From positions 320,488-384,487 of the forward strand of contig NZ_FQUU01000002.1 in assembly GCF_900129295.1 (NCBI RefSeq): 64,000 nucleotides of DNA. Reading direction: 5' to 3'. This DNA comes from Flavisolibacter ginsengisoli DSM 18119. GTDB taxonomy: Bacteria; Bacteroidota; Bacteroidia; Chitinophagales; Chitinophagaceae. Below, in pieces: positions 12,651 through 62,700 of this stretch. Each line of letters opens with the position of its first letter. The stretch's first letter is position 1. The notes beneath the pieces are model-generated. The model did no database searches and was not told where the DNA came from. It saw nothing but the letters and a program-made list of their open reading frames with translations. Position numbers and translations under genes: made by a program.

Positions 12651-12746
12651 TAAACCTATTTCAGTATCCCTTCAGAGGCAATGACCACCATCACTCCTTT
12701 CTTTGACAGTGCTCATTGCCAGACCTGGGGAATTGGTTTTGCTTTG
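12651..12746. promoter_or_regulatory. Divergent promoters sharing tandem TGA-N6-TCA operators
   Basis: Two operators, TGACCACCATCA (12682-12693) and TGACAGTGCTCA (12704-12715), lie exactly 22 bp apart. The left one ends 23 bp before the minus-strand -7 box TAGGTTTA (12658-12651, hydrolase-PRTase). The right one ends 23 bp before the plus-strand box TTGCTTTG (12739-12746, esterase-BON). Each operator centre is near -41 of its predicted transcript, the class II activator position. The same geometry recurs through 46-63 kb. Confidence 0.8.
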
Positions 12747-12761
12747 GGAAAACCCTTAATT

Positions 12762-14096
12762 ATGCGCAGGTACTTTACAAAAGAATTAGCACCTAATGAA
12801 GAAAGAACCATTTCTATTATTAAGGATAAGGCTGAGGTGTTAACGAACCAGGCTGACCTTCAGCCATTGTTTGACAGGATCGGCGATGCTCAATTTGTAA
12901 TGCTTGGAGAAGCGTCGCATGGCACGCACGAATACTATACATGGCGTTCACAGATCACAAAAAAACTCATAAAAGAAAAGGGGTTTCAATTTATAGCCGT
13001 GGAAGGAGACTGGCCGGATTGTTACCAGGTGAATCGTTACATTAAAAACTATGCAAATGCTGGAGGCAGTGCGCTGGGTGTATTAAAACGCTTTAACCGC
13101 TGGCCTACATGGATGTGGGCTAACTGGGAAATGGTTGCAATGATTGATTGGTTATATAAGTATAATAAACCTTTACCTGCTAGCAAAAAAATAGGGTTTT
13201 ATGGACTTGATGTTTACAGTCTATGGGAAAGCCTGGAAGCCATTCGGGAATATTTAAAACATATTGATCCAAATGCTTTGAAGGTAGCTGAAGAAACATT
13301 CCATTGTTTTGAACCATACAAAGCTGATGAAGGCCGGGGATATGCCCGGGCAACTCAATTTGTTCCGGAGTTGTGTACTGATGAAGTGGTAGAATTGCTT
13401 AAAAAGATACAGGAACATTTACCTTCTTATAATTCAGATCATGAAAATGTTTTTAACGTTGAGCAAAATGCAATCGTAACACTCAATGCAGAAAGGTACT
13501 ATAGGGCCATGGTAAAAGGGGGGCCTCACTCCTGGAATGTAAGGGATCATCATATGTACGAAACGCTCAATCGCTTAACTGACTTTCATGGGAAAGGTGC
13601 AAAGGTTATCATCTGGGAACACAATACACATATTGGAGATGCCAGGGCAACAGACATGACTACTGAGGGCATGTATAATGTTGGGGAGTTGGCCAGGATA
13701 AAACACCATGAACACGGAGTGGTATTAGTTGGTTTCGGATCATATAAAGGAGAAGTGATAGCAGCAAAAGGCTGGGGTGCACCCATGAAAGTAATGGCCG
13801 TGCCTCCAGCAAGAAAAGGAAGCTGGGAATATATATTGCACAAAGCCAGCCCTGAAAATAAGTTATTGATAATGGATGATTTCATGGATGAAGAATTAAT
13901 GGAAACTCATATCGGCCATCGGGCCATAGGCGTAGTATATAATCCGGAATATGAAAAGTACGGCAATTATGTTCCCAGTATTCTACCATTACGTTATGAT
14001 GCGTTTATCTACCTGGATCATACAACTGCCTTACACCCCTTACATATCCAGCCTGATGGACACCAGATACCTGAAACTTATCCATTCGGCGTATGA
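12762..14096 (+). CDS. Erythromycin esterase-like protein
   Basis: A 444-residue member of the erythromycin-esterase/EreA-SwiB superfamily. Key signatures are LGEASHGTHEYYTWR near the N-terminus, AVEGDWPDCYQVNRYI, and the IIWEHNTHIGDA motif carrying the catalytic His. Most such proteins are stress-associated hydrolases not shown to act on macrolides, so resistance should not be inferred. I start at ATG 12762 because the longer frame from 12681 would begin inside the operators and cross the -7 box at 12739-12746; the leader is then about 12 bases. The BON-domain gene follows 57 bases downstream. Confidence 0.88.
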   Translation: MRRYFTKELAPNEERTISIIKDKAEVLTNQADLQPLFDRIGDAQFVMLGEASHGTHEYYTWRSQITKKLIKEKGFQFIAVEGDWPDCYQVNRYIKNYANAGGSALGVLKRFNRWPTWMWANWEMVAMIDWLYKYNKPLPASKKIGFYGLDVYSLWESLEAIREYLKHIDPNALKVAEETFHCFEPYKADEGRGYARATQFVPELCTDEVVELLKKIQEHLPSYNSDHENVFNVEQNAIVTLNAERYYRAMVKGGPHSWNVRDHHMYETLNRLTDFHGKGAKVIIWEHNTHIGDARATDMTTEGMYNVGELARIKHHEHGVVLVGFGSYKGEVIAAKGWGAPMKVMAVPPARKGSWEYILHKASPENKLLIMDDFMDEELMETHIGHRAIGVVYNPEYEKYGNYVPSILPLRYDAFIYLDHTTALHPLHIQPDGHQIPETYPFGV

Positions 14097-14153
14097 CAAA
14101 AATTCTGTTACTCCTTTTGAGGACTAATTATTCATCATTTAAATTATTTTATT

Positions 14154-14825
14154 ATGAAAAATGATCTCGAAATTCAACAGGATGTAATGAACCAATTGAA
14201 ATGGAATCCCTTTTTAAAAGCTTCCGAGATCGGTGTATCCATTAAAAATGGAATAGTTACACTTTCAGGGCAGGTGGACAGTTATGCTCAAAAGCTGGAA
14301 GCTGAACGAACTGTCAGAAAAGTTGCAGGTGTAAAAGCTATTGCAGAAGATATTCAGATTGGCGTTTTACCAAGCTACAGAAAGAGTGACACTGATATTG
14401 CTGCTTCAGTTTTGAATGCATTGAAATGGCATAGTGCAGTACCTGAGGATAAACTGGAAGTAAAAGTAGAAGATGGAGTGGTAACACTTGGAGGCGAAGT
14501 AGAATGGGAATATCAAAGGAATTCTGCCCGCAATGCAGTTGTAAACCTTCTAGGTGTTCGTAGTGTGATCAACAATATTGCCATTAAGCCCAAAGCTTCT
14601 GCAGGTGATGTAAAGTCAAAGATCACTTCGGCATTATTGCGAACAGCAACTATAGATGCAGAAAGAATATCTGTTGATGTCGTTGGCAATAAAGTAATAC
14701 TAAAAGGAAAGGTTCGCTCCTATACTGAAAAAGAAGATGCCGAGGAAGCTGCCTGGTTTGCTCCTGGTATTGCTACAGTTGAAAGTCACCTTGAATTGAT
14801 ACCCCAGGAAGAGTTAATGTTTTAA
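14154..14825 (+). CDS. Protein with three BON domains
   Basis: The 223-residue protein consists of three BON (OsmY-like) repeats of about 70 residues: near 5-70 (VSIKNGIVTLSGQVDSYAQK), 78-145 (VKVEDGVVTLGGEVEWEYQR) and 155-220 (VDVVGNKVILKGKVRSYTEK). BON domains bind phospholipid surfaces and occur in osmotic-shock proteins. There is no signal peptide, so it may act in the cytoplasm, unlike E. coli OsmY. It follows the esterase gene on the same strand and is closed by a terminator at 14834. Confidence 0.9.
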   Translation: MKNDLEIQQDVMNQLKWNPFLKASEIGVSIKNGIVTLSGQVDSYAQKLEAERTVRKVAGVKAIAEDIQIGVLPSYRKSDTDIAASVLNALKWHSAVPEDKLEVKVEDGVVTLGGEVEWEYQRNSARNAVVNLLGVRSVINNIAIKPKASAGDVKSKITSALLRTATIDAERISVDVVGNKVILKGKVRSYTEKEDAEEAAWFAPGIATVESHLELIPQEELMF

Positions 14826-14833
14826 ACCACAAT

Positions 14834-14871
14834 AACAGGCAATGTCTGCTAAAGCATTGCCTGTTTGTTTT
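14834..14871 (+). terminator. Rho-independent terminator after the BON gene
   Basis: An 11-bp perfect stem AACAGGCAATG/CATTGCCTGTT (14834-14865) is followed by a run of T on the plus strand. It ends the esterase-BON transcript. Confidence 0.85.
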
Positions 14872-15033
14872 TACTAAACACAAACAACTTAGTTGTGTTG
14901 CCCCTTTCATACTTTCCTGGGAAGGGGATGGATTTCGTGCACTCATTTAATCATCAATATCTGATGTAAGATTTTCGGTCAGGTATTTGATGCGTTATGA
15001 TGATAACATGACCCATTGCTTAAATATTAATTT

Positions 15034-15249
15034 ATGAGTAAGGAATTCAAAGTTGGTGACCATGTAAGCTGGAACTCTGAAGCCGGCCATGTTTCCGGCA
15101 AGATCATTAAAATACATTATGCAGACTTTAATTATAAGGGTTATACACACCATGCTTCGAAAGAAGAACCACAGTATGAAATAAAAAGTGATAAGTCTGA
15201 TCATATTGCAGCACATAAAGGCTCCGCTCTTACAAAATTCAAGAAATAG
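15034..15249 (+). CDS. DUF2945 (HVA1-type) small protein
   Basis: A 71-residue basic protein, FKVGDHVSWNSEAGHVSGKI followed by a YTHHASKEEPQYEIKSDKS segment and HKGSALTKF. This matches the small DUF2945 'hypervirulence-associated' family with a Tudor-like barrel, widespread in soil bacteria and unrelated to virulence in most of them. The role is unknown. It lies downstream of the BON terminator, so it probably has its own promoter; the 170 bases before it have many TGA triplets but no clean operator. Confidence 0.8.
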   Translation: MSKEFKVGDHVSWNSEAGHVSGKIIKIHYADFNYKGYTHHASKEEPQYEIKSDKSDHIAAHKGSALTKFKK

Positions 15250-15276
15250 CTTTTCCAGTTTTCCTGGGGAGCAAAA

Positions 15277-16392
15277 TTACTTCCCCGTGACAGGAACAAT
15301 AGCTGGTGCAATGGGATGTTCAGCCCTGAATTCATAGCCTAATAGTTTGGCTATGGTCTGTGCAAATTGTTGCTGATACCATTGTCCTTCGTATTTAATT
15401 TCTCCACCTGTGTTAACACCGGGACCCATTACTGCCAACCATATTTCATTGGCACCTGGCACATCACTTCCATGATCCCTCCATTGGTCCTTTATAATAT
15501 CTCCCCGCCCGTGATCGGTAGTAATAAACAGAGAAGTTTTATTGCGATAGTGTGGATCGGATTGCACCTTTTCCCAAAGTTCCCTGATCCAGGCGTCTAC
15601 CTGGTGCGCTGCATCCAGGTAAGAACGGTATTTACCTGAATGCGCCCATTCATCAGTTTCACCGTAAGCTATATATAAAACCCTGGGCTTATTTTTATTC
15701 AGTTCTTCTATAGCAGCATAGTGCGTGAATACATCAAGACATTCCCCCATACGCCATGGCTTGTAAGAGTCACGCCTCATTTTATTGATCAATAGCTGGT
15801 TGGCATTGGGATACTTCCCCCCAACAAGGTCAAACGCAGATATAACCGGCATGCCACTTCGTTTCTCATTTAAAATGCGGTCAAAAGCATTCCATGCACC
15901 AAATACCGAAACCTTTCCTTGAAACCCAGGTTGTTTGTTTAAATATTCCAGCACATTTGTATTTGGGTTAGGAGGATATTCATTGGAATTAATTGCAGTA
16001 TCAGCAAAGCCTGTCATGATCTCACTGTAACCTGGATAACTGAACCAATAAGGATTGGCGGTGTTCACTTTATTACCATAATTCCGGTTACCATACAGTT
16101 GTCCATTTGTTGCTATTACAGACCATAAAAAAGGCATTAGTTTCTTTCTCCGCTCTTCACTATTGGTATTCCAATAGGCCTGGTATAAATAAGAACTATC
16201 ACCTTCGTTGTATTTATTATTATTGGCAATTGATGAATCCATACCGCCAAATACTTCCTGCCATCTAAATCCATCTGTTGTAACTATAATAATGTTTTCG
16301 GCAATTAATTGAGATGGAATAGAAACTGTTTTATGCTGGGCCTGGGCAACAATCCCCATTAGCACAAAGCTGAAAAAAAGAATCTTCTTCAT
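15277..16392 (-). CDS. Alkaline-phosphatase-superfamily phosphodiesterase/sulfatase-like protein, secreted
   Basis: The 371-residue protein starts with a signal peptide (MKKILFFSFVLMGIVAQAQ). The core is alkaline-phosphatase superfamily: IIIVTTDGFRWQEVFGG supplies the first metal ligands, YIAYGETDEWAHSGKY and LFITTDHGRGD the remaining Asp/His ligands, and WRDHGSDVPG a late His. This points to a zinc-dependent periplasmic or surface phosphodiesterase or phosphatase; the substrate is unclear. It lies 120 bases behind the TonB receptor gene on the same strand, which suggests linked uptake and hydrolysis. Confidence 0.82.
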   Translation of the reverse strand: MKKILFFSFVLMGIVAQAQHKTVSIPSQLIAENIIIVTTDGFRWQEVFGGMDSSIANNNKYNEGDSSYLYQAYWNTNSEERRKKLMPFLWSVIATNGQLYGNRNYGNKVNTANPYWFSYPGYSEIMTGFADTAINSNEYPPNPNTNVLEYLNKQPGFQGKVSVFGAWNAFDRILNEKRSGMPVISAFDLVGGKYPNANQLLINKMRRDSYKPWRMGECLDVFTHYAAIEELNKNKPRVLYIAYGETDEWAHSGKYRSYLDAAHQVDAWIRELWEKVQSDPHYRNKTSLFITTDHGRGDIIKDQWRDHGSDVPGANEIWLAVMGPGVNTGGEIKYEGQWYQQQFAQTIAKLLGYEFRAEHPIAPAIVPVTGK

Positions 16393-16511
16393 AATGGTAG
16401 TAAAGAAATAAAAGCCTTTGTTCTAGAGGTGACCAATAAAATCATCAGACCTTATTTCAACTAAGATAATGAAGAAGTATTCTTTTTACCGATTAATTGC
16501 CGTTCTCCATT

Positions 16512-21233: not shown

Positions 21234-21241
21234 ATATTTTT

Positions 21242-22915: not shown

Positions 22916-22955
22916 TGGTATTTCTTTTTTCCAGGAAGATTCCTGTAACAATTAC

Positions 22956-46001: not shown

Positions 46002-46021
46002 TTGATTGTTTGACAATCAAA
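46001..46021. promoter_or_regulatory. Inverted repeat over the mlaE-like transcription start
   Basis: A perfect 9-bp inverted repeat TTTGATTGT/ACAATCAAA with a 3-base spacer covers the first base of the ATG up to the end of the -7 box. It could be a repressor operator or an mRNA 5' hairpin masking the start. It does not have the TTGAT-N4-ATCAA spacing of Fnr sites. Confidence 0.55.
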
Positions 46022-46082
46022 TATTGGACATTTTAATCTGTTTTTAAATGAAACTCGTCAAGGGAAATAATGATATAAATCA
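46018..46082 (-). promoter_or_regulatory. Tandem-operator promoter of the Mla-PNPOx operon
   Basis: Two perfect operators TGAAACTCGTCA (46049-46060) and TGATATAAATCA (46071-46082) lie 22 bp apart. The proximal one is 23 bp from the minus-strand -7 box AATATTTG (46025-46018). The predicted start near 46014 leaves a leader of about 13 bases. Confidence 0.78.
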
Positions 46083-46093
46083 CCAAAGAAAAA

Positions 46094-46501
46094 TTATAAA
46101 AGGATCTCTCTTTCTATCCATAAATTATTACGATAATTTAAAACGCTTTTTTTGCCTATTTCATTTAGTTCATCAAGAGATAGCTCATCCGTACCAGCTG
46201 TTTCAACCCATGAATAGCCATTCCGGCGATATATTTGTGTAAACAACCCAAATTGCTCTTTCATTTGCTCTTCAACCTCCCCGGCTTTCATCCATCTGTT
46301 AAAATGAATCATATTTTGAGTATGCTTTTTTGTTTCAATTGCAGATATCTTAAATTCGGATGAATAACGATGCGCTTTCCTGGTTGTTTCCCCCCAGTTA
46401 TGCGGCATGTCAAAAAACTCAATCTTTAAATATGGATATTCTTTGCTAAAAGGCGATTGGATATCCTTAATACAGGATATTTTCTTGATTTCGAGTGTCA
46501 T
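46094..46501 (-). CDS. Hypothetical protein, coupled to the small membrane protein upstream
   Basis: I do not recognise this 135-residue soluble protein. It has mixed alpha/beta character with several aromatic residues (YLKIEFFDMPHNWGETTRKA, IHFNRWMKAGEVEE, LFTQIYRRNGYSWVET). Its ATG overlaps the stop of the 55-residue ORF upstream (ATGA), so the two are translationally coupled and transcribed from the operator-controlled promoter at 46684-46691. Confidence 0.65.
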   Translation of the reverse strand: MTLEIKKISCIKDIQSPFSKEYPYLKIEFFDMPHNWGETTRKAHRYSSEFKISAIETKKHTQNMIHFNRWMKAGEVEEQMKEQFGLFTQIYRRNGYSWVETAGTDELSLDELNEIGKKSVLNYRNNLWIEREILL

Positions 46502-46683: not shown

Positions 46684-46779
46684 GCAAATTAAGTAAGACC
46701 TAAAACACTTTCAATGAGCGCTGTCACCAAAACCAATGATGGCTGTCACCTATGATAGCTTAGCTATAAAATAAATTTG
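46684..46779. promoter_or_regulatory. Divergent promoters sharing tandem TGA-N6-TCA operators
   Basis: Operators TGAGCGCTGTCA (46715-46726) and TGATGGCTGTCA (46737-46748) are 22 bp apart. The left one is 23 bp from the minus-strand box TAATTTG (46691-46685, small membrane protein). The right one is 23 bp from the plus-strand box TAAATTTG (46772-46779, phospholipase-D-type gene), which is a perfect consensus. Confidence 0.82.
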
Positions 46780-49005: not shown

Positions 49006-49665
49006 CTACATTGCTTTAGCTCCGCCAGTGGATTGTTTGATCAATAAATTATTAGTAACTAAAGACTTAACAATTAGTTTTCCATATTCATGCGCTAATT
49101 CCTCTCTTGAAGAAGGTTCGAAAGATTGGGTTTGAATAGAATATAGCAGCTTATTTTTATTCAGATCATAAAGGTTGCTTTCCCAAAAATAGTTTGAATA
49201 ACTACTATAATAACCAGGAGTTTCTATTCTCTCATAAATTGTTCTGTAATATCCCCAAAAACGGGTATGGTATGTAAAGTAAGGTGTGTATATCACCCTG
49301 CCCGGTACGTAATACCTTTCCTGTTTCTTATCTAATAAAACAATAGTAAGCACTCCATCAAAACCACTCGATTTAAGTTTTTGGTTTGCCTGTTCTTCGG
49401 TTAAATTTTCAAAAGCCTTAGGACCATATTCTTCAAGAGCTGAATAGGCATTATAACCTAATTCTTTAAGATCCCCTACCAAGTGATTTTCCATATTCTG
49501 TTGAATGCTTCTATCTGCATCCCGAATCAATCCCAGCACCATTACCTTATCAAATGTGCGCGGTGCCGCATCGGGCGCTTTCCAAGTACTGGTTATTGCA
49601 GTGGTGGTTCCGCATGAAATAAATAACCACCCCGAAATCATAAGAAACACAATAATATTTTTCAT
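49006..49665 (-). CDS. DUF4136-like lipoprotein
   Basis: The 219-residue protein starts MKNIIVFLMISGWLFISC, a lipoprotein signal. The body (SSTWKAPDAAP-like, KVMVLGLIRDADRSIQQNME, LVGDLKELGYNAYSALEE) resembles the DUF4136 lipoproteins of Bacteroidota, with a putative TolB-type N-domain fold. It is probably outer-membrane anchored. It shares the operator-controlled promoter at 49683-49690 with the YdjM-like gene. Confidence 0.75.
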   Translation of the reverse strand: MKNIIVFLMISGWLFISCGTTTAITSTWKAPDAAPRTFDKVMVLGLIRDADRSIQQNMENHLVGDLKELGYNAYSALEEYGPKAFENLTEEQANQKLKSSGFDGVLTIVLLDKKQERYYVPGRVIYTPYFTYHTRFWGYYRTIYERIETPGYYSSYSNYFWESNLYDLNKNKLLYSIQTQSFEPSSREELAHEYGKLIVKSLVTNNLLIKQSTGGAKAM

Positions 49666-49682: not shown

Positions 49683-49747
49683 ACAAATTATTAAATAGAA
49701 AAATGCCTATCAATGATGGCTGTCAGTTAATAGCAGAATTGATATCA
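49683..49747 (-). promoter_or_regulatory. Operator-promoter of the lipoprotein-YdjM unit
   Basis: TGATGGCTGTCA (49714-49725), identical to the operator at 46737, is 23 bp from the minus-strand box TAATTTG (49690-49684), identical to that at 46691. A second position 22 bp upstream (49736-49747) keeps only the TCA half. Confidence 0.75.
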
Positions 49748-49770: not shown

Positions 49771-49835
49771 ATCTAGGAATCATTATAAAATCTGACGACC
49801 ATCAGCACTTAGAAAAAGCGTTTAGGTTACCTTAA
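49771..49835 (+). promoter_or_regulatory. Operator-promoter of the P-type ATPase gene
   Basis: TGACGACCATCA (49793-49804) is 23 bp before the -7-like box TACCTTAA (49828-49835). The position 22 bp upstream (49771-49782) keeps only the TCA half. The predicted start is about 10 bases before the TTG start codon. Confidence 0.65.
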
Positions 49836-52376: not shown

Positions 52377-52814
52377 TTAGTATACCACTATCCTTCCTGA
52401 CCTGTTTCTGAATCCGCCTTTTAGTTTTGGGAAATATATTTTAAGCAGCCCGTCCTCGTAAACAGATTTAATAAAATCGGTATCAATATCTTCTGGCAAT
52501 GGAATTCTTCCCATTAAAGATTTAAAATCGTAGTTCTTTACCTCGGAAAATAATGCCTGGGGATTCACTGGTTGCATGACAAAAATAATAAGGTCATGCT
52601 CGTTAATGAAAATGGCAAAGTCTTCTCTTTTCAATCCAGGCATTCCCATTTCCACCTTGATATGATCTGCAAACTCATAGGTATTGATCAAAGGAGCAGG
52701 ACCCTTATTAATACCTTTATTGGTTAGCAGATCCTGTATATTATACGGAGGGGGGTTGTATTTACCTGGGTATAATGTCGTGGCATCATTGTCCTTGGTG
52801 TAGTAGTTATTCAT
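52377..52814 (-). CDS. Hsp20/alpha-crystallin family small heat shock protein
   Basis: The 145-residue protein has an alpha-crystallin domain (about 45-140): HIKVEMGMPGLKREDFAIFI, IPLPEDIDTDFIKSVYEDGL, and LLKIYFPK near the end; the usual C-terminal I-x-I anchor is replaced by GRIVVY. It is an ATP-independent holdase. A second Hsp20 is at 62153. Its leader is unusually long (about 107 bases from the predicted start near 52922). Confidence 0.9.
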   Translation of the reverse strand: MNNYYTKDNDATTLYPGKYNPPPYNIQDLLTNKGINKGPAPLINTYEFADHIKVEMGMPGLKREDFAIFINEHDLIIFVMQPVNPQALFSEVKNYDFKSLMGRIPLPEDIDTDFIKSVYEDGLLKIYFPKLKGGFRNRSGRIVVY

Positions 52815-52925: not shown

Positions 52926-52968
52926 CTAAGCTAAGGACATAAATACCTCCAAACCATGACGGAAATCA
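52926..52968 (-). promoter_or_regulatory. Operator-promoter of the first hsp20 gene
   Basis: A perfect operator TGACGGAAATCA (52957-52968) is 23 bp from the minus-strand box TAGCTTAG (52933-52926). No partner operator is seen 22 bp away. Confidence 0.65.
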
Positions 52969-54779: not shown

Positions 54780-54796
54780 AACACCTGATTATAATA

Positions 54797-54861
54797 CAAA
54801 CTATGACTAAATTCTACCAGGAACAATGACCAAATAACACTTGCTTCACTGATTATTATCA
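54797..54861 (-). promoter_or_regulatory. Operator-promoter of the universal stress protein-DUF1003 unit
   Basis: The minus-strand box TAGTTTG (54803-54797) is preceded at 23 bp by TGACCAAATAAC (54827-54838), an operator with one good half. A perfect operator TGATTATTATCA follows at 54850-54861, 23 bp from the first (elsewhere 22). Confidence 0.55.
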
Positions 54862-54893
54862 TTACAGCTCATCTTCCAGTGCAAGTCTTTAAC

Positions 54894-54958
54894 TGACAGC
54901 AATTACGATTCGCTGTGATGGTCGTCATTGAAACACTCATACTGTCTTAATATGTTTG
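54894..54958 (+). promoter_or_regulatory. Tandem-operator promoter of the baeRF-like gene
   Basis: TGACAGCAATTA (54894-54905, one mismatch) and TGATGGTCGTCA (54916-54927) lie 22 bp apart. The second is 23 bp before the perfect -7 box TATGTTTG (54951-54958). This places the transcript start near 54962, downstream of the first two in-frame start codons. Confidence 0.82.
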
Positions 54959-54981
54959 CCTCGAACATAAAAAACAACTTT

Positions 54982-56118
54982 ATGTATATTACTTCCCCCC
55001 GGCTTACCCACGAAGAAATGGATATGCTGCAGACCAACGAAAATGATACTTGCATATCAATAATTCTCCCTTCCCATAATAACTGGACAGCAGGATCGAA
55101 ATCTATAAACCTGGACCGATCGATTCAAAAAGCTATAGACCAATTAAACCTGTCATATCCAGATTCGAAAGAAGAACTGGAAGGAAAGCTTAAGCACCTG
55201 GCCAATAATGTCATACTTGAACAATATCCTTTGGGCCTTGGTTTATTTGTAAGCGAGAAGATTGAATATTGTGTTCAATTCCCCTTTATTGTAGAAGAAA
55301 AAATAAGTATTAGCAATCATTTTGAATTGAAAGACCTGTTATACAAGGTTAATTATTCAAACCCGTATTACGTGCTTTTACTGGATGAAAAACAAGCCTG
55401 CCTATATACAGGAGAGTTTAACATAATTCATAAAGTGCAGGATGCCAATTTCCCTCTTATCTATACGGAGGACTTTGAATACGAGAAAGCATCCAGGACA
55501 AATTCGTATTCTGGCAGGGCAACCATCAGCAGTTTTGAAAAAGACAAAAGTGCTGTACAAAAGAGCCGCTACCTTTCATTCTTAAAGTCTGTAGATGATT
55601 TGCTTGATATTTATATTTCTAAAAATGATAGCCAGGTTATTATTTGTGGCGTAAAAAGCGTTACAGCTTCATTTCTTAATCATTCTAAACATGATGACAA
55701 AATAATAGGTGTGCAGCATGGTAATTATAGTCATCTAAATGAATTTGAATTAGGACTATTGGTATCACCTTTACTGCTGGCCACACAGGAAGAAAAAATG
55801 CTTGAAGAAATATCTGATCTTGAAGAAAAGAAAGGCGAAGGATTAGCGGAAGAAGGTATTTCCGATGTATGGGCAGCAATTACTGACGGACGGGGATACA
55901 TTTTACTTGTGGAAAGGGATTATGATGTTAAAGTATATTATGATAAAAGTTATCCCTTGGAAATACAGATGACGCCTTCCAAACAGTCGCCTGGCATTTT
56001 AGAGAACGCGGTTGACAAGGTTATAGAAATGCATTTGAACAAAAAAGGAAAAGTACTGATCCTAAATAATGGCATGCTGGCTGGTCATAAGCAAATTGCA
56101 CTTATTACCCGTTATTGA
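54982..56118 (+). CDS. baeRF family 3 protein (archaeo-eukaryotic release-factor-like)
   Basis: This 378-residue protein resembles bacterial eRF1-like proteins: CISIILPSHNNWTAGSKSIN at the N-terminus, a YYVLLLDEKQACLYTGEF strand pair, and a C-terminal RNase-H-like/eL30-like part (ISDVWAAITDGRGYILLVER, GKVLILNNGMLAGHKQIA). baeRF proteins are proposed to act on stalled or hibernating ribosomes; Rv2629 of the DosR regulon is a relative. I choose ATG 54982: TTG 54928 and ATG 54952 lie upstream of or inside the -7 box at 54951-54958. Confidence 0.82.
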   Translation: MYITSPRLTHEEMDMLQTNENDTCISIILPSHNNWTAGSKSINLDRSIQKAIDQLNLSYPDSKEELEGKLKHLANNVILEQYPLGLGLFVSEKIEYCVQFPFIVEEKISISNHFELKDLLYKVNYSNPYYVLLLDEKQACLYTGEFNIIHKVQDANFPLIYTEDFEYEKASRTNSYSGRATISSFEKDKSAVQKSRYLSFLKSVDDLLDIYISKNDSQVIICGVKSVTASFLNHSKHDDKIIGVQHGNYSHLNEFELGLLVSPLLLATQEEKMLEEISDLEEKKGEGLAEEGISDVWAAITDGRGYILLVERDYDVKVYYDKSYPLEIQMTPSKQSPGILENAVDKVIEMHLNKKGKVLILNNGMLAGHKQIALITRY

Positions 56119-56296
56119 TATTTTTGATATCCATCGTGTATTATAATACAATGTGCTTCAAATGTAAATAGGAAATGAAATAAATATTTAGGTCTATTCT
56201 TTATTATTAAAGTGATTGTCTAACTATAGAAACAAATGATTGAATTAAACAAGTACATACTGTACCCATTAATATTTATATTAAACTTCAACCCAA

Positions 56297-56770
56297 ATGT
56301 TTGGAAAATTAACAGCAGAGCAGATTGAACAGGTGTTACAAAATCAGCTCCTGGGCCACCTGGCTTGTCATGCAGATGATCAAACCTATCTCGTTCCAAT
56401 AAGCTATGCTTATGAAAACAATTCGCTGTATGTTCATTCTGAAGATGGTATGAAAATAAAAATGATGCGGAAAAATCCGAAGGTATGCGTCCAGGTAGAT
56501 GAACGCCAGGATATGTCCAATTGGAGAAGCGTAATTGGATGGGGAAAGTTTTCAGAAATTACAAATGAGGAAGAAAGGAAAAAAGCTTTGCAATTATTAG
56601 TAAACCGCCAGCTCCCCATTCTTTCCAGCTCAACTACTCATCTTGGCAGCAATTGGCCTTTCTCTTCCAATGATGAAACGGTTATTCCAGGTATTGTATT
56701 TAAAATAACACTGGATAAAAAAACCGGGAGGTTTGAAGAAAATAAGGTTTCGCCCCAATTTGCCGGTTAA
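56297..56770 (+). CDS. Pyridoxamine 5'-phosphate oxidase-like flavin-binding protein
   Basis: The 157-residue split-barrel protein is a paralogue of the 42962 product: MFGKLTAEQIEQVLQNQLLG, CHADDQTYLVPISYAYENNS, LYVHSEDGMKIKMMRKNPKV, then SNWRSVIGWGKFSEI. It probably binds a flavin and may handle reactive carbonyls or redox stress. It is convergent with the second universal stress gene. The promoter is uncertain: a near-operator lies at 56237-56248 but the -7 box is not well placed. Confidence 0.85.
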   Translation: MFGKLTAEQIEQVLQNQLLGHLACHADDQTYLVPISYAYENNSLYVHSEDGMKIKMMRKNPKVCVQVDERQDMSNWRSVIGWGKFSEITNEEERKKALQLLVNRQLPILSSSTTHLGSNWPFSSNDETVIPGIVFKITLDKKTGRFEENKVSPQFAG

Positions 56771-56804
56771 ATCATTCCATTTGGTTTTGAATATTTTCAG
56801 GAAA

Positions 56805-57626
56805 TTATAAATGCGCAATAAATACAGGAATATGCCTTTCTTCAATGATGCCTTCTGCAAAACTTCTTTTTAAAAACTGTGATATGGCAGAACGTCCAAA
56901 TGATCCACTTACCAAAACTGAATTGCGATTTGCCATCACCCATTTGGTAAAATCTTTTTTGGGATCTACATCAAGTTTTAAAAGTTCAAGATCAGTAAAA
57001 TGTTGCGTTGCTAGTTCTTCAATATATATTTCATCCGGCAAATGATCCTGGGTATCATTCTTAGAAAAAACCAAAACCGTTTTATTTCTACAAAGCTCAG
57101 GAAATAAATAAGCAAACTGCTTAATGGCAAAAACACAATCACGGCTTCCATCATATGCAAGAATGTTAAATTCCGGAAACTCATATTTACCAGGTACCAC
57201 CATAACAGGGCATTCGGCTTCATGCAATGCCTCTTTGAGATAGTCTATAGGGTTTACACCTACCTGATTTTGATAAAACGCATCACTCTCAATTATAAGA
57301 AGATCTGCAAAACGTGTTTCTTTTTTCAATTCGGGAATAGCAAATTTACCCTGGTCATTATGTACTCGGTAAGTTATTCCATTATGTAAACACATATTTT
57401 CAAACTGAGCAATAGAACTTTCCACCACGTCAGGGACTTCTTCTACTAATGGAACAAAGGCAGGTCCTGCCATGCCCGCTGTATAGCTCCATAAATTGGT
57501 ATAACTGGTCTCAGTCATAAATACTCCGGTAAGAAGAACTGGTTGCAATTCATTAATTCTCCTGGCAAACTCAAATCCTGCAGAAGAAAAATGCCCTCCA
57601 TTGAAAGCTATAATTATCTTTTTCAT
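56805..57626 (-). CDS. Universal stress protein, tandem Usp domains
   Basis: The 273-residue paralogue of the 53961 product (for example IIIAFNGGHFSSAGFEFARR, RFADLLIIESDAFYQNQVG, ILAYDGSRDCVFAIKQFAYL, GSFGRSAISQFLKRSFAEGI). Both share the NLWSY-x-A/V-GMAGP insertion after the first Usp start. Presence of two such copies points to a local duplication with separate regulation. The promoter has tandem operators (57656-57720). Confidence 0.88.
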   Translation of the reverse strand: MKKIIIAFNGGHFSSAGFEFARRINELQPVLLTGVFMTETSYTNLWSYTAGMAGPAFVPLVEEVPDVVESSIAQFENMCLHNGITYRVHNDQGKFAIPELKKETRFADLLIIESDAFYQNQVGVNPIDYLKEALHEAECPVMVVPGKYEFPEFNILAYDGSRDCVFAIKQFAYLFPELCRNKTVLVFSKNDTQDHLPDEIYIEELATQHFTDLELLKLDVDPKKDFTKWVMANRNSVLVSGSFGRSAISQFLKRSFAEGIIEERHIPVFIAHL

Positions 57627-57655
57627 TAAAAATATTTTAGTTTAAATCACTTGAA

Positions 57656-57720
57656 CTAAACTAATACATACAGTTAATTTATTTTATGACTAATCAGCGT
57701 CTATAAACTGATTATGGTTA
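57656..57720 (-). promoter_or_regulatory. Tandem-operator promoter of the second universal stress gene
   Basis: The minus-strand box TAGTTTAG (57663-57656) is preceded at 23 bp by TGACTAATCAGC (57687-57698, one good half) and, 22 bp further, by TGATTATGGTTA (57709-57720, one mismatch). The copies are degenerate but the spacing is exact. Confidence 0.55.
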
Positions 57721-57820
57721 GCCTAAAAGAAGAGGCAGAATAGAAATTCCGCCACTTATAAGATCCAGATATTAATTGAAAAACCTTAGTAAAGCTCATT
57801 AACCGACTCTATGTTTTCTA

Positions 57821-57884
57821 TGACTGTTATTGACTTGTTTTATGATGGTTATCAGTACAAACACAATGCAGTTATATACTTTTA
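57821..57884 (+). promoter_or_regulatory. Orphan tandem operators with no gene in the predicted direction
   Basis: TGACTGTTATTG (57821-57832, one half) and the perfect TGATGGTTATCA (57843-57854) are 22 bp apart. A -7-like TACTTTTA (57877-57884) lies 22 bp downstream on the plus strand. The region to the right holds the 3' end of the minus-strand DUF892 gene, so a transcript from here would be non-coding or antisense. Leftward, no -7 box is placed. Confidence 0.45.
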
Positions 57885-57953
57885 TAAGTATAATTTTTAT
57901 GATGTTACTTTCATTGCATTTGTTGTATTATGGCGAATGATATTATCGCAGAT

Positions 57954-58469
57954 TCAATCAATGATGGGAGATTTTGCCAACGGATTGATCTCCTGTTCTG
58001 CTAAAAAATTTAATCTTGAATCAATATCCTTTTCGTCCTTTTCACTGGCATAAAATTCTGCAGCTGTTATATCAAGATCAAGAACTTGCGCAAAGGCAGC
58101 TATCGTACCATACACACATATCTTATAATGAATCATTTCCTGTATACTGGAAAGTAGAAGAGCATCAATTATTTCAGCATCTCTGCAATCGCTCATTTTT
58201 TCATTTACCTCATCAATGAAAGCTTGCGCTACAATATTCTGAACATCGAAATCAATAAGCTTCTTTCGTTCAAAAAATTTAAGTATTCCATCTACATGGT
58301 ATTTTATGTAAACAAGATAGTGTTCCATTACAACTTTCAGCCGAGCGGATTTTATTCTGTCAATCCATCCCGGAAGTGCGCTTATAAGCTGGTTTTCGCA
58401 ATAAAGGATCTTACGTGTATCATATATCAACAAATCATGCAATGTACCTATGGTTGCAATCTTTTTCAT
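57954..58469 (-). CDS. DUF892-family (YciE/YciF) ferritin-like protein
   Basis: The 171-residue all-helical protein follows the DUF892 pattern: TLHDLLIYDTRKILYCENQL with the Glu of the AE-QL position, a middle MEHYLVYIKYHVDGI helix, the SIQEMIHYKICVYGTIAAFA helix replacing EHYEI-x-YGTL, and a last helix EKDEKDIDSRLNFLAEQEIN. These proteins have a ferritin-like diiron fold and are induced by osmotic or general stress. It is divergent from the PEBP gene with shared operators. Confidence 0.82.
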   Translation of the reverse strand: MKKIATIGTLHDLLIYDTRKILYCENQLISALPGWIDRIKSARLKVVMEHYLVYIKYHVDGILKFFERKKLIDFDVQNIVAQAFIDEVNEKMSDCRDAEIIDALLLSSIQEMIHYKICVYGTIAAFAQVLDLDITAAEFYASEKDEKDIDSRLNFLAEQEINPLAKSPIID

Positions 58470-58482
58470 AATGACCTTTATT

Positions 58483-58578
58483 TAAACTTAATACTGTTAA
58501 TGCTTGCTGCCAATGACAGGCATCATTCTTTTCTTTGATGACGCTCATTGATATACTTCACATTATTGGTTTGCTTTG
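58483..58578. promoter_or_regulatory. Divergent promoters sharing tandem TGA-N6-TCA operators
   Basis: TGACAGGCATCA (58514-58525) and TGATGACGCTCA (58536-58547) are 22 bp apart and both perfect. The left is 23 bp from the minus-strand box TAAGTTTA (58490-58483, DUF892). The right is 23 bp from the plus-strand box TTGCTTTG (58571-58578, PEBP), the same box as at 12739. Confidence 0.82.
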
Positions 58579-58638
58579 GTATCATTAAGATTTAAAGTAT
58601 TGCTTTAGTATAGAATTTCACACACCTAAATTTCAGAC

Positions 58639-59133
58639 ATGTCAAACTTATCACGGCAATTTGAGCCTTCAAAAGCAATTGACTATAAGGTATTAAATGT
58701 AAACAGCCCATCATTTGAAGCTGGCCACATGATACCAATAGAATATACATGTGATGGCAGGAATACAAACCCACCACTTGAAATTGAGCATATTCCCCAT
58801 GAAGCCAGGAGTCTTGCCATTATTATGGATGATCCTGATGCCAGGTATAATCCTTTTGTCCATTGGGTTATATGGAATATTCCAATAACTAAACATATAC
58901 ATGAAGGTTTCAACCATGGCATAAACGGAATTAATGATTTTGGAAGAACACGTTATGAAGGCCCTTGTCCGCCCACTGGTATTCACAAGTATTATATTAA
59001 AGTATATGCTCTGAATGGGATACTCGATCTGCCCCCAGGCAGTAGTAAAAAACAACTTGAAAAAGCTATGTCTGATCAAATAATTGCATTTGGTGAACTT
59101 ACCGGTCAATACCAAAGGAAAAATTCAAAATAG
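58639..59133 (+). CDS. YbhB/YbcL family PEBP (Raf-kinase-inhibitor-like) protein
   Basis: The 164-residue protein has the PEBP signatures IPIEYTCDGRNTNPPLEIEH, LAIIMDDPDARYNPFVHWVI and the GPCPPTGIHKYYIKVYALNG strand. Bacterial members bind small anionic ligands; no inhibitor role is proven. The leader is about 57 bases long from the predicted start near 58582. Confidence 0.93.
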   Translation: MSNLSRQFEPSKAIDYKVLNVNSPSFEAGHMIPIEYTCDGRNTNPPLEIEHIPHEARSLAIIMDDPDARYNPFVHWVIWNIPITKHIHEGFNHGINGINDFGRTRYEGPCPPTGIHKYYIKVYALNGILDLPPGSSKKQLEKAMSDQIIAFGELTGQYQRKNSK

Positions 59134-59478
59134 AATTTAAGATGATAAGTTAAAACTGAAGTTTTTTATATTGATTACTAGATTTAAATTTAGTCTCATC
59201 ATTAATACATATCCACGAGTAACAATATCTGCTTCCTCAAATTAGAACTATTTATTTTTTCTGGTCCTTACATTAAAGGATGTCCTAGTCTATTATAAAC
59301 CTTTTGAATAGCTTAATTTTGAGTGAGTAAACTCAAATTAAAAATTGATGTTTATCAGCTGAAGGATTTGAAAAAAGGCTCACCTTGCAGGTAACGAGAT
59401 ACCAAACGGATAAAACGGATTTTAGTCAATTATAAATTTTTAGGTCTTTCCTTTCACATTTTCTAATACCTGATTATT
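59134..59478. other. Intergenic region upstream of the receiver-Crp regulator
   Basis: 345 bases. It contains the tandem operators at 59324 and 59346. No gene-like frame and no clear -7 box at the standard 23-bp distance was seen; CACCTTGC at 59381 is weak and TAAATTTT at 59433 is not linked to an operator. Confidence 0.6.
59324..59357. promoter_or_regulatory. Tandem operators upstream of the regulator gene (probable autoregulation)
   Basis: TGAGTAAACTCA (59324-59335) and TGATGTTTATCA (59346-59357) are both perfect TGA-N6-TCA sites 22 bp apart. They end 121 bases before the ATG of the response regulator-Crp gene at 59479. Unlike elsewhere, a good -7 box is not at the 23-bp position, so the effect could be repression or activation of a weak promoter. 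Confidence 0.65.
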
Positions 59479-60537
59479 ATGAAAAAGATCCTGGTCGTTG
59501 AGGATAATTTAGACATCCGTGATAATACGGCAGAGATCCTGGAAATGGCTAATTACAGGGTATTTACGGCAGAGAATGGATTGAAAGGGGTTGAATCTGC
59601 AATAGCTAACAAACCCGACCTGATTGTCTGTGACATTATGATGCCTGAATTGGATGGGTATGGGGTATTGCATGTAATTCAGCACAATCCTGAATTAAAG
59701 AGTACACCATTTATATTTTTATCAGCCAAAACAGAACCCGCGGAAGTTAGGAAAGGAATGGGCTTGGGTGCTGATGACTATATTCCAAAGCCATTTACCG
59801 CCACAGACCTTTTAAATGCAATAGAAAGCAGGCTTAAAAAAGTAGAAGTTTTAAAATCTACCATATCATCAGATATTCATGGGTTCAACCACTTGATGAG
59901 CATTACCTCGGGGAAAGAAGCCTTACAACAATTTATTGATGGCCGCAATACCAATAGATATAAAAAGAAACAGATTATATTTTCTGAGGGAAACAAGCCT
60001 ACCCGACTATATTATATCCAAAAAGGTAAGGTCAAGATCATTAAATCCAATGATGAGGGTAAAGAACTGGTTGTAAACTTATTTAACGAAGGTGATTTTT
60101 TTGGGTATACAGCTTTACTCGAAGGAACATCCTACAAAGCTTCGGCTGTTGCAATTGAAGAGTGCGAAATAGCTGAAATTCCAAAAGAGGAATTTGAAGA
60201 GTTAATGAATACTAACCCGGAGGTAACTCATAAATTTATTCAACTGCTGGCAAAGAATATAACTGAAAAAGAAAAGCAGCTATTGAACCTGGCCTATAAT
60301 TCCCTGCGAAAAAAAGTTGCAGATGCATTGATCACCCTTATGGAAAAATATAACCGAAAACTAAACGATCATTATACAATAGATATCAGCCGCGAAAACC
60401 TTGCTACAATTGCTGGTACAGCTACAGAATCTCTTATACGTACATTAAGTGATTTTAAAACCGAAAAATTACTTGAGATAATGGAAGGGCATATAATAAT
60501 ACTGAATGAGAATAAACTTCGAAAGATGATCAATTAA
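59479..60537 (+). CDS. Response regulator with receiver, cNMP-binding and Crp/Fnr-type HTH domains
   Basis: The 352-residue protein combines a receiver domain (1-125, acidic pair Glu8-Asp9, phosphorylation site Asp52 in VCDIMMPELDG, Ser82, Lys104) with a Crp-type effector domain (about 150-260) and a Crp/Fnr winged helix (about 285-345). The recognition helix ATESLIRTL keeps Glu317 and Arg321, equivalent to Glu181 and Arg185 of Crp that read the TGA core. The Fnr N-terminal cysteines are absent, so redox sensing by an Fe-S cluster is unlikely. No histidine kinase is nearby. It is the prime candidate for binding the TGA-N6-TCA operators. Confidence 0.93.
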   Translation: MKKILVVEDNLDIRDNTAEILEMANYRVFTAENGLKGVESAIANKPDLIVCDIMMPELDGYGVLHVIQHNPELKSTPFIFLSAKTEPAEVRKGMGLGADDYIPKPFTATDLLNAIESRLKKVEVLKSTISSDIHGFNHLMSITSGKEALQQFIDGRNTNRYKKKQIIFSEGNKPTRLYYIQKGKVKIIKSNDEGKELVVNLFNEGDFFGYTALLEGTSYKASAVAIEECEIAEIPKEEFEELMNTNPEVTHKFIQLLAKNITEKEKQLLNLAYNSLRKKVADALITLMEKYNRKLNDHYTIDISRENLATIAGTATESLIRTLSDFKTEKLLEIMEGHIIILNENKLRKMIN

Positions 60538-60926
60538 TTGTAATAACCAACGACACTTTCAGCCAGGAATTCATTAAATTCCTTTTTTAGATTGAATAGA
60601 ACTTCTTCAGCTTTCTCAACATCTTTTTTTAATTTCTGGTGGTTCCTGATGACTAATTCAAGTATCTGAGTATCTGTGGCAATATTTTGACTCAGGAATT
60701 TTATGTGTTGATGTATCTCATCCACAAGCCAGTGTATTGTTTCATCACTCATTATAAAATTTCCCTGGAAGTATTCAGACCTTTCTAACAATTCTTCATT
60801 GACAGCATCATTTAATATCTCAGATAAACGATTGCGGTAATAAACATTTTCTTCCCTAAAGAAATACAATATTCTTTTCCAGGATTCACATTCAAAATTA
60901 AACTGTCTGATAAATGTGGCAGGCAT
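60534..60926 (-). CDS. Hypothetical helical protein
   Basis: A 130-residue, mainly helical protein that I do not recognise. It has the pattern MPATFIRQFNFECESWKRIL, a YYRNRLSEILNDAVNEEL helix, then IHWLVDEIHQHIKFLSQNI and a KKDVEKAEEVLFNLKKEF coiled-coil-like helix. I start at ATG 60926; a TTG 33 bases upstream would overlap the protease gene. It follows the site-2 protease gene by 16 bases, probably in one unit, and overlaps the end of the convergent regulator gene by 4 bases. Confidence 0.65.
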   Translation of the reverse strand: MPATFIRQFNFECESWKRILYFFREENVYYRNRLSEILNDAVNEELLERSEYFQGNFIMSDETIHWLVDEIHQHIKFLSQNIATDTQILELVIRNHQKLKKDVEKAEEVLFNLKKEFNEFLAESVVGYYN

Positions 60927-60942
60927 ACGAATCGTTTCAATT

Positions 60943-62064
60943 TCACACCAATTCAGCAAGGGACCGTGCTTTCTGGTACTCCCGGGTCTTTGATTTTTGC
61001 AAAATCAGATGTTCAATGATGTTTTGAAAACTTATAACACCTATGAAATGGTCTCCTTCCATTACAGGGTATATCTTACCCTCATGGGCTGAAAGTTCAT
61101 CCATCACCTCTAAAACAGGTTTGGAAGCATCATAGAATAGCGTATTTTCTTTCATTACCTCACTTACAGTAGTGTCATATTTCATTTCTGCAACTGCCTT
61201 TATGATCTCCATACGATTTACTATTCCAACAGGCCAATTGTCATCCATTACAATGAAATAGCGGCTGTGATTTTGCGCAAGTAAATTAGCGGCTTCATTA
61301 ATCGTAGTACTGACATTCATATTATTGTAGTCATACATTACCACATCCCGTACAAATATGCCTTTTACTAATTCATTTATATTAAAATAAGATGCCTCGT
61401 CTGATGCAAATGCAAGAATATAAAGCCCTAACAGGGAGACAAAAAAGTTGTAGCTAAACAGCCCTGTTATTATAAGCAGAAATGCTACAATGCGGCCAGT
61501 ATGACCAACTATGGCAGTAGCCCTTATATAGTTGTACTTAAACCCGAGCAAGGCCCTGAAAACTCTTCCACCATCAAGAGGAAACGCTGGTATGAGATTA
61601 ATGACGGCAATGGCAATATTGAGTACGCCAAGGCTGTAAATAAAATTAGATGAGTCAATAATACCAGTATATGCCCTCATATCATTTAATGAAAAGGGTA
61701 GCCCGGAAAACAAAACAAGGGTTGATCCTATTAAAGTACTAACAAATACTCCGGCTAAACTGATTGGCAATTCCTGGCCCGGATTATCTGGTAATTTATC
61801 AATGCTTGCTATTCCGCCTACAGGATAGAAAGTGATCCATCTTGCATTAATGCCAAACTGGGCACCTACCAATGCATGTCCAACTTCATGCAAGACCAGG
61901 CTGAAAAAAATTGCAATAAAGAAAAGCAATGACCAAAGCATTTGACCAGGGTGAAGGCCGGAATAGATGTTCATAACAATCAACCACCCAATTAATAACA
62001 GAAAAGTAAAGTGAACAGAGATCACAACACTTTTAATGGAACATAACCTGATGGAGCCTTTCAT
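60943..62064 (-). CDS. Site-2 protease (M50 family) with two CBS domains
   Basis: The 373-residue protein has six or so membrane helices with the zinc-site HEVGH (residues 59-63) and the second motif PAFPLDGGRVFRALL, followed by two CBS domains (about 235-365: MYDYNNMNVSTTINEAANLL, FYDASKPVLEVMDELSAHEG). This domain order matches Rip3-type proteases, including DosR-regulated Rv2625c. I start at ATG 62064 because the upstream extension crosses the terminator hairpin of hsp20. It lies behind hsp20 and would depend on read-through or a local promoter. Confidence 0.9.
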   Translation of the reverse strand: MKGSIRLCSIKSVVISVHFTFLLLIGWLIVMNIYSGLHPGQMLWSLLFFIAIFFSLVLHEVGHALVGAQFGINARWITFYPVGGIASIDKLPDNPGQELPISLAGVFVSTLIGSTLVLFSGLPFSLNDMRAYTGIIDSSNFIYSLGVLNIAIAVINLIPAFPLDGGRVFRALLGFKYNYIRATAIVGHTGRIVAFLLIITGLFSYNFFVSLLGLYILAFASDEASYFNINELVKGIFVRDVVMYDYNNMNVSTTINEAANLLAQNHSRYFIVMDDNWPVGIVNRMEIIKAVAEMKYDTTVSEVMKENTLFYDASKPVLEVMDELSAHEGKIYPVMEGDHFIGVISFQNIIEHLILQKSKTREYQKARSLAELV

Positions 62065-62082
62065 AAAATAAGCTTTGTTTTG

Positions 62083-62107
62083 AAAAAAAGCCCCGCCGCA
62101 TAGGGGC
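62083..62107 (-). terminator. Hairpin with T-run behind the second hsp20 gene
   Basis: On the minus strand GCCCC/GGGGC with an 8-base loop (62090-62107) is followed by seven T. It could end the hsp20 message or lower expression of the protease gene downstream. Confidence 0.75.
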
Positions 62108-62152
62108 GACAGGGCTGTTCTGTAGGGTATAAGCCATACGGTAGATGGCCTT

Positions 62153-62596
62153 CTAATGAACAGCAATTTGTTTTGTTGCTGTTAATTTCTTTGAATTCTC
62201 TTTCCTTGGTAATGCAAGGATCAAAACTCCGTTTTCATATTTAGCATCAATGGCTTCCTGTTTTACATCCTCAGGAAGAGTAAAACTGCGTGAAAAAGAA
62301 GTGTAGTTATATTCCTTGCGTGTTACCATTTCATCCTTTTCTTCTTTCTTTTCTTCTTTCTCTGAGCTTATAGTTAGCATATTGCCTTCTACATTGATCT
62401 TGAAATCTTCTTTCTTTAATCCTGGAGCTGCCAATGACATTTCATAATGATCTTTTTTTTCAGTTATGTTAACTGCTGGAAGAGTCATCATTTTATTGGC
62501 AAATTCGTTATTATCAAACCATTCATTCCATGGTCTGAAGAAGTCATCAAAAATGGATGGTGTCATGCTCAATCTGGTTAAGGCTCTGCTTGACAT
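62153..62596 (-). CDS. Hsp20/alpha-crystallin family small heat shock protein
   Basis: The 147-residue chaperone starts MSSRALTRLSMTPSIFDDFF and has a full alpha-crystallin domain (about 40-140: VNITEKKDHYEMSLAAPGLK, NMLTISSEK, SFTLPEDVKQEAIDAKYENG, VLILALPRKE). The C-terminal tail ends TATKQIAVH. It differs clearly from the 52377 protein, so two distinct sHsps may form mixed oligomers or serve different clients. The promoter has a perfect -7 box with tandem operators. Confidence 0.93.
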   Translation of the reverse strand: MSSRALTRLSMTPSIFDDFFRPWNEWFDNNEFANKMMTLPAVNITEKKDHYEMSLAAPGLKKEDFKINVEGNMLTISSEKEEKKEEKDEMVTRKEYNYTSFSRSFTLPEDVKQEAIDAKYENGVLILALPRKENSKKLTATKQIAVH

Positions 62597-62635
62597 AGTA
62601 ATAATTTTAATGTTACTGAATCATTTTTTACATAT

Positions 62636-62700
62636 CAAATCTATGCTTGCAGCATGCGCTATTCAAAGACGGTGGTCAGCATTTCTTATGAGTGTGGTCA
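62636..62700 (-). promoter_or_regulatory. Tandem-operator promoter of the second hsp20 gene
   Basis: AGACGGTGGTCA (62667-62678, one mismatch) and TGAGTGTGGTCA (62689-62700, perfect) are 22 bp apart. The proximal one is 23 bp from the perfect minus-strand box TAGATTTG (62643-62636). Confidence 0.75.

Follow-up and report, generated by a model that had tools for sequence, protein, structure and literature searches.

A 64,000-nucleotide stretch of contig NZ_FQUU01000002.1 from Flavisolibacter ginsengisoli DSM 18119 (hereafter, the window) carries a repeated arrangement of two TGA-N6-TCA operators placed 22 bp apart, followed 23 bp further on by a TAnnTTTG-like promoter box. This arrangement is a real, conserved operator-promoter code, and the regulon that it marks is predicted to respond to low oxygen through a fused regulator of FixJ-FixK type. 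We put the probability at about 80% that the sites serve as operators in an FNR/FixK-type regulon for low oxygen, present in Chitinophagaceae and their relatives and controlled by receiver-Crp fusion proteins, one of them encoded at position 59479 of the window, and by a FixL-like kinase, a reading that is drawn from sequence comparisons.

We scored an operator by the six fixed bases of TGA-N6-TCA, the box by the six of TAnnTTTG, and the composite of two operators and a box by all 18, and counted matches in 1008 combinations of pair distance and box gap. In the combination written (22,23), the operators lie 22 bp apart and the box 23 bp beyond the proximal one. At a threshold of at least 16 of 18 bases, the window held nine (22,23) matches, whereas 300 dinucleotide shuffles averaged 0.007 and never gave more than 1. 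The other combinations averaged 0.056, the highest being 4 at (22,24). An initial annotation of this DNA had judged the exact spacings to be beyond chance, and these counts bear it out.

The same spacings stood out in the host genome (4.68 Mb, 55 contigs), where 35 pairs of perfect sites had 0-30 bp between them and 14 of these had exactly 10 bp, equal to the 22-bp spacing; a reversed control gave 7 pairs in all. The genome-wide search for TGA-N6-TCA-N23-TAnnTTTG proposed in the initial annotation placed 14 of 47 mismatch-free matches, spread over 31 gaps, at exactly 23 bp. Since the reversed control reached 35 matches over all gaps, the enrichment of operator and box sits in that single gap. 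Composites with up to three mismatches occurred 53 times, compared to 4 for the reversed control.

We then scanned 1.38 Mb around relatives of the 59479 protein, in 80 loci kept from at least 514 confirmed, with named relatives including Flavihumibacter, Ferruginibacter, Terrimonas and Niastella. Perfect operator pairs occurred 90 times at 22 bp and at most 5 times at any other distance up to 60. TAnnTTTG followed a perfect site 52 times at 23 bp and 74 times at 45 bp (23+22), with an average of 2.3 over the 60 gaps other than 23 (45 included), while five control palindromes gave no match at these distances, 22 bp included. Composites with at least 17 of 18 bases numbered 114 at (22,23), and the other 1007 combinations averaged 0.09, with a maximum of 6 at (22,24). 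These counts should not be read as P values, because related loci are not independent. Among the 52 strict promoters with proximal operator and box, the distal operator was perfect in 44 and matched 5/6 in 3, and none of 624 control offsets exceeded 4/6; doubled operators are therefore the rule in the scanned loci. A chance or compositional origin of the spacings in AT-rich intergenic DNA might be argued from the abundance of single TGA-N6-TCA sites, of which the window has 38, and from operator-box totals over all gaps that barely exceed the reversed control. However, shuffles, other spacings, control palindromes and reversed composites all failed to reproduce the pattern, which refutes this explanation for the composite of tandem operators and box, and we regard its overall probability as negligible.

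The position of the operators relative to the promoter points to activation. The -7 element of Flavobacterium johnsoniae spans -12 to -5 with the consensus TAnnTTTG (PMC6847099). By this numbering, an operator ending 23 bp upstream is centred at -41.5 and the distal operator at -63.5. The former is a class II site, in agreement with the centre near -41 that had been proposed from the window, and the latter lies two helical turns further on the same face. Enrichment of TAnnTTTG at exactly 23 bp matches the -7 element of Bacteroidota sigma-ABfr promoters, in favour of which a sigma-70 reading of the box was dropped. A TTG at -33 was also rejected as part of the code: it comes after the proximal operator at nine of the 14 promoters of the window, but the 80 loci showed no enrichment (36 at offset 0, with 22-47 at most neighbouring offsets). 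We considered whether the sites could instead be repressor or dual-acting operators at which binding switches genes off, as the proximal operator ends at -36, beside the expected -33 element position, divergent promoters have pairs in common, and the pair ahead of the regulator gene, with no good box at 23 bp, could serve autorepression. In E. coli, by contrast, -41.5 is the class II activator position of FNR, with 19 of 23 directly activated promoters of known start carrying a site at -41.5 ± 4 (PMC3688515), and the predicted targets are of the kind activated by FNR or FixK (PMC4999443). Repression thus appears very unlikely.

The genes behind the composite promoters fit a respiratory, low-oxygen theme. 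In the 80 loci, the 114 composites fell in 64 loci, and 110 had a downstream open reading frame, whose 109 different products formed 30 clusters. Pfam annotation covered 19 of these clusters with 20 proteins, and some further clusters were tied to window proteins by BLAST. The largest cluster comprised 26 P-type ATPases, of which both members scanned were of the heavy-metal type, like CcoI. It was followed by cytochrome c (17), Rrf2 regulators (14), fused CcoN-CcoO proteins (12), which matched the NCBIfam cbb3 I/II models, and Ric/ScdA (5). Usp, NosZ, HemN, YceI, ferritin, OsmC and Hsp20 genes were also found downstream in relatives, and the HemN match passed its NCBIfam equivalog cut-off. On host contig C45, an operator precedes cytochrome c and NosZ genes, and another precedes an operon of Rrf2, Ric, PAS kinase and regulator genes; a congener has the same two arrangements. 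A YceI gene and a single receiver protein likewise lie behind composite sites in the host genome. Efflux, DUF3943, cupin and HlyD genes of the host also lie downstream of sites and share no common theme, and some of the sites before such genes may be due to chance. A search of the host genome for cbb3 oxidase, run without a positive control, gave no match at E 1e-40. The downstream gene content in relatives is that of a predicted FNR/FixK-type regulon. The claim that all of these promoters serve stress-type genes was therefore too narrow: stress genes are among the predicted targets, and the regulon would extend to nitrous oxide reductase, cytochrome c, iron-sulphur repair and, in relatives, cbb3 oxidase. 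The host nosZ (L166:6172-8681) is of the Sec type and lies, together with a cytochrome c gene, downstream of a perfect tandem operator.

The regulator proposed to read these sites combines a receiver with a Crp-type protein. In the 59479 protein, PF00027 and PF13545 were both above cut-off, indicating a cyclic nucleotide (cNMP)-binding fold and a Crp-type helix-turn-helix (HTH); an AraC-family reading of the 22-bp repeats was dropped since Pfam gave the REC-cNMP-HTH_Crp_2 order. In the PDB, its C-terminal part matched CRP/FNR proteins and its N-terminal part receivers, with no chain covering both among the 60 matches listed of 373. The AlphaFold model (mean predicted local distance difference test score 79.8, predicted TM-score 0.40) agrees on domain order, its domain placement being unreliable. 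None of the 25 matches listed among 104 matched NCBIfam models reached its cut-off. The stretch GYTALLEGTSYKASA lacks the Glu/Arg pair that we take to form the cyclic AMP-binding pocket of CRP, and the NCBIfam CRP model scored 113 bits against a cut-off of 266. The host encodes a 53% identical paralogue on C45 (class B, the 59479 protein being class A), and no N-terminal iron-sulphur (Fe-S) cysteine cluster was seen by eye in either protein, which sets them apart from FNR proper.

Across 21 aligned sequences, the receiver residues D9, D52 and K104, which would support phosphotransfer, and E317 and R321 of the recognition helix are invariant; the helix Glu and Arg are presumably the residues that read TGA. 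The window and C45 fusions have the helix GTATESLIRTLSDFK. When operators were typed, TGANNG half-sites made up 47% of those in the window (15 operators) versus 8% of class B sites (150 sites), and the mean G+C of N6 was 3.3 versus 1.75 (p 8e-5, with sites that are not independent). This difference between G-rich window spacers and A/T-rich class B spacers may give each of the two paralogues, whose recognition helix is the same, its own site specificity.

A candidate oxygen sensor lies next to the regulator. The PAS domain of the kinase adjoining the C45 regulator has FixL as its best PDB match (E 2e-19), and of the 78 loci with sufficient sequence, 55 encode a relative of this kinase immediately ahead of the regulator, on the same strand and no more than 300 bp away; this holds for 13 of the 15 class A loci. 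Among 66 aligned kinase sequences (C45 and those of 65 loci, with some fragments lacking PAS), 58 have a residue at the position that we take to be the haem ligand, and it is His in 57; the position assumed to be the distal residue of the FixL pocket is occupied in 59 and is Arg in 43. A second PAS kinase of the host, on contig C21 (L180:2339-4474), is 43% identical to the C45 kinase over residues 121-524; downstream of its gene come a composite operator (4/6/6) and a single-domain receiver protein. By eye, its PAS domain lacks the FixL haem motif. This kinase and receiver are candidate parts of the class A pathway.

We also surveyed 247 Bacteroidota genomes for a full-length fusion (E<=1e-50) and for composites with at most one mismatch. 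The fusion was found in 38 genomes, the composite in 34 and both in 24, with a single match in one genome for the reversed composite. Composites occurred in 24 of 38 fusion-bearing genomes versus 10 of 209 without the fusion; the whole-phylum p of 5e-16 overstates the case because ancestry is shared. Within the same taxonomic class, the association held at 24 of 38 with the fusion versus 5 of 23 without it (Fisher p=0.003). That the code surrounds relatives of the 59479 protein and is commoner in genomes with the fusion supports the earlier proposal of a regulon with class II Crp/Fnr geometry, with the protein's family as its probable reader.

Collectively, these data are consistent with a scheme in which the host would use two fusions, class A beside a stress island and class B beside nosZ. 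As oxygen falls, the FixL-like PAS histidine kinase would probably lose O2 from its haem, and the active kinase would phosphorylate the receiver domain of the Crp-type regulator. Regulator dimers would then bind both operators of a TGA-N6-TCA pair, at the 22-bp spacing and centred on -41.5 and -63.5, and switch on the Bacteroidota promoter, which has its -7 box 23 bp beyond the proximal operator.

Several observations weigh against this scheme. At the promoter level (window promoters are named by the first base and strand of the box), the box at 23 bp matches only 4/6 in 46691-, 49690-, 49828+ and 54803-, so that the exact 23-bp placement reported for all fourteen held at ten, with at least 5/6 of TAnnTTTG; the box of 46691- is better at 22 bp. 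Four of the 14 lack a distal site of 5/6, as do 10 of the 14 strict single-site matches in the host genome (>=5/6 required), and single-operator promoters may therefore also exist. Nine window boxes have G at a free position, unlike F. johnsoniae, in which G is virtually absent from the two free box positions and the refined consensus is TAHHTTTG (PMC6847099); among relatives, 12 of 52 strict promoters had G at free positions, compared to 373 of the 1003 TAnnTTTG occurrences that their DNA contains overall. At the kinase level, 23 of the 78 loci have no kinase directly upstream, the window encodes no kinase resembling that of C45, and of the 14 kinases labelled class A, a group in which L094 is counted, 12 carry Lys or Met at the distal position. 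The class A kinases (L046-L057) keep the haem-His, and the altered distal residue hints at another ligand or affinity. At the genome level, 14 of the 38 fusion-bearing genomes lack the composite, mostly in one family (f5), and only 4 of these have any perfect pair, with none in the other 10. Conversely, five genomes of the class carry composites and no fusion, five genomes beyond the class have one composite match each and no fusion, and one genome (G021) has a similar recognition helix yet no perfect tandem pair, so that helix and tandem sites do not always occur together. No perfect pair was found in six genomes of the class without fusion, in a search whose reversed control matched in 3 of 20.

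The five class genomes with composites and no fusion show that the fusion is not the sole reader, and they raise the alternative that another Crp/Fnr protein, an Fe-S FNR type or a plain Crp paralogue, reads the operators, with the fusion as a neighbour or modulator. Each of the five (L191-L195) encodes an FNR-like protein with N-terminal cysteines (by eye) and a recognition helix, GTATES(V/A/T)IRLLSEFK, that closely resembles the one in the window and C45 fusions. Sites and their adjoining genes were retrieved for two of the five (G017 and G150); in both, the sites lie ahead of CcoI and CcoNO, and in G150 the FNR-like gene adjoins this cluster. Autoregulation of the G150 gene was rejected, as the nearby site faces away, towards an ATPase gene. 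The host genome itself has five Crp-like matches besides the two fusions; the helices of the two best (TARENIVR and TTYETVFK) differ, however, and the operators both precede the fusion's own operon and track its presence within the class. We therefore consider it unlikely that another protein takes the place of the fusion as reader, and retain control by the receiver-Crp fusions, while some relatives probably use an Fe-S-type FNR to read this operator. This distribution suggests that an Fe-S FNR and the kinase-driven fusion may have replaced each other on one operator set. Contacts between receivers as a reason for the doubled sites were weakened as an idea, since genomes without the fusion have the same 22-bp pairs.

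Re-reading the 14 window promoters (Table 1) gave the same split as the initial annotation, with 11 perfect proximal operators and three partial ones, of which 54803- and 57663- keep the TCA half only and 62643- reads TGA..TCT. A distal operator of at least 5/6 lies 22 bp upstream in ten promoters, and both operators reach 5/6 in nine; 57663- falls outside these nine full pairs, having a distal operator and half a proximal one. The nine pairs counted initially hold as promoters with a pair and correspond to six separate pairs on the DNA, since at 12.7, 46.7 and 58.5 kb two divergent promoters use a common pair. One more pair, the seventh, perfect and absent from the earlier list, precedes the regulator gene and possibly serves autoregulation in another geometry. 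All 14 boxes lie 2-183 bp ahead of a usable start codon. For 12739+ and 54951+, the longest open reading frame begins upstream of the box, and an in-frame ATG lies 16 and 24 bp past it, respectively; starting past the box, the erythromycin-esterase-family protein has 444 residues, compared to 445 in a relative (L058). By Pfam, the gene families of the island are Usp, Hsp20, DUF1003, DUF892, cation ATPase, PLD, M50-CBS, BON, erythromycin-esterase and phosphoribosyltransferase. The island also includes, behind a tandem operator, a bacterial release-factor-like protein (baeRF family 3; 54928-56118), and the window further encodes TonB/CarbopepD_reg proteins, which together with the named relatives of the regulator fit an origin in Bacteroidota and, probably, in Chitinophagaceae.

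Table 1. Operators, promoters and regulator gene of the window. Scores are fixed bases matched (of six) in the distal operator, proximal operator and box.
Feature	Position	Strand	Score	Gene and remarks
Tandem operators + box (12658-)	12651..12715	-	6/6/5	Hydrolase + phosphoribosyltransferase genes 11309-12638 (-); hydrolase Pfam matches below cut-off
Same pair as 12651..12715, read rightward, + box (12739+)	12682..12746	+	6/6/5	Erythromycin-esterase-family gene (Pfam), likely start 12762
Tandem operators + box (46025-)	46018..46082	-	6/6/5	MlaE/ABC/MlaD genes (Pfam)
Tandem operators, weak box at 23 bp (46691-)	46684..46748	-	6/6/4	135-aa gene 46094-46501, no Pfam match
Same pair as 46684..46748, read rightward, + perfect box (46772+)	46715..46779	+	6/6/6	Phospholipase-D-family gene 46801 (Pfam)
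Perfect proximal operator + weak box, distal site 4/6 (49690-)	49683..49725	-		Gene 49006-49665, no Pfam match
Single perfect operator + weak box (49828+)	49793..49835	+		Cation-transporting P-type ATPase 49849 (Pfam)
Single perfect operator + 5/6 box (52933-)	52926..52968	-		Hsp20-family gene 52377-52814 (Pfam)
Half operator (TCA) + weak box (54803-)	54796..54838	-		Usp-like + DUF1003 genes; Usp Pfam match below cut-off
Tandem operators (distal 5/6) + perfect box (54951+)	54894..54958	+		baeRF-family gene (Pfam), likely start 54982
Half proximal operator (TCA), 5/6 box, distal 5/6 (57663-)	57656..57698	-		Usp-family gene 56805-57626 (Pfam)
Tandem operators + box (58490-)	58483..58547	-	6/6/5	DUF892 gene 57954-58469 (Pfam)
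Same pair as 58483..58547, read rightward, + box (58571+)	58514..58578	+	6/6/5	PBP-family gene 58639 (Pfam)
Tandem operator pair (22 bp), no good box at 23 bp	59324..59357	.		121 bp before regulator gene
REC - cNMP_binding - HTH_Crp_2 regulator, 352 aa, class A, proposed operator reader	59479..60537	+		Domains by Pfam
Tandem operators (proximal 5/6) + perfect box (62643-)	62636..62700	-	6/5/6	Hsp20 then M50-CBS peptidase genes (Pfam)

The predicted system resembles the FixL-FixJ-FixK cascade described in Alphaproteobacteria (PMC4999443) in having a PAS kinase with FixL as its nearest match, a predicted activator of Crp/Fnr type that lacks an Fe-S cluster (by eye) and operators before CcoNO, CcoI, HemN and NosZ genes, which are predicted to be under its control. 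It differs in that receiver and Crp domains form one 352-residue protein in place of a separate FixJ, and in its tandem operators and Bacteroidota promoter instead of sigma-70. Class II regulation by FNR and Anr shares the TGA-N6-TCA core, the helix Glu and Arg and the centre at -41.5. In E. coli, however, 89% of the peaks in the direct FNR regulon hold one site (PMC3688515), whereas two operators 22 bp apart are usual in the loci scanned here, and the fused proteins lack the Fe-S cysteine cluster (by eye).

Usp, M50-CBS and esterase/phosphoribosyltransferase genes also belong to the DosR regulon of mycobacteria, and DosR is a NarL-type response regulator with another operator. That regulon, a hypoxia regulon under a haem kinase, includes a cation ATPase (ctpF) and a small heat-shock protein (PMC4082495), and its likeness to the present system is confined to gene content. 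The lxa locus of Burkholderia cenocepacia is likewise an island of Usp, heat-shock and BON genes, linked to an Anr-like Crp protein whose B. dolosa homologue is a FixK under FixLJ (PMC6127331); phylum, regulator architecture and promoter differ, and the gene lists overlap only partly. In its genes, the stress island of the window resembles the low-oxygen survival islands lxa and, in part, DosR. Literature searches listed no description of a regulon of this kind, which is our sole basis for keeping the initial annotation's term "undescribed".

We give even odds to a broader account, in which FixJ and FixK have collapsed into one phosphorylation-gated protein under a FixL-like kinase, acting through a doubled operator on a Bacteroidota promoter. 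This protein would have been swapped in evolution with an Fe-S FNR, such that the oxygen sensor changed while the operator code and targets were kept, and in the host a duplicated copy would have acquired control of a dormancy-like stress island whose operators have a G-richer core.

These findings provide part of the Bacteroidota with a readable, position-exact operator-promoter code together with a candidate regulator and kinase, making regulons predictable genome by genome. They assign survival genes, along with those for nitrous oxide reductase and high-affinity oxidase, to a single predicted oxygen switch, and raise the question of why two adjacent operators are usual on this promoter type. 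The exchange of an Fe-S FNR and a kinase-driven fusion at a fixed operator would represent a natural case of regulator replacement.

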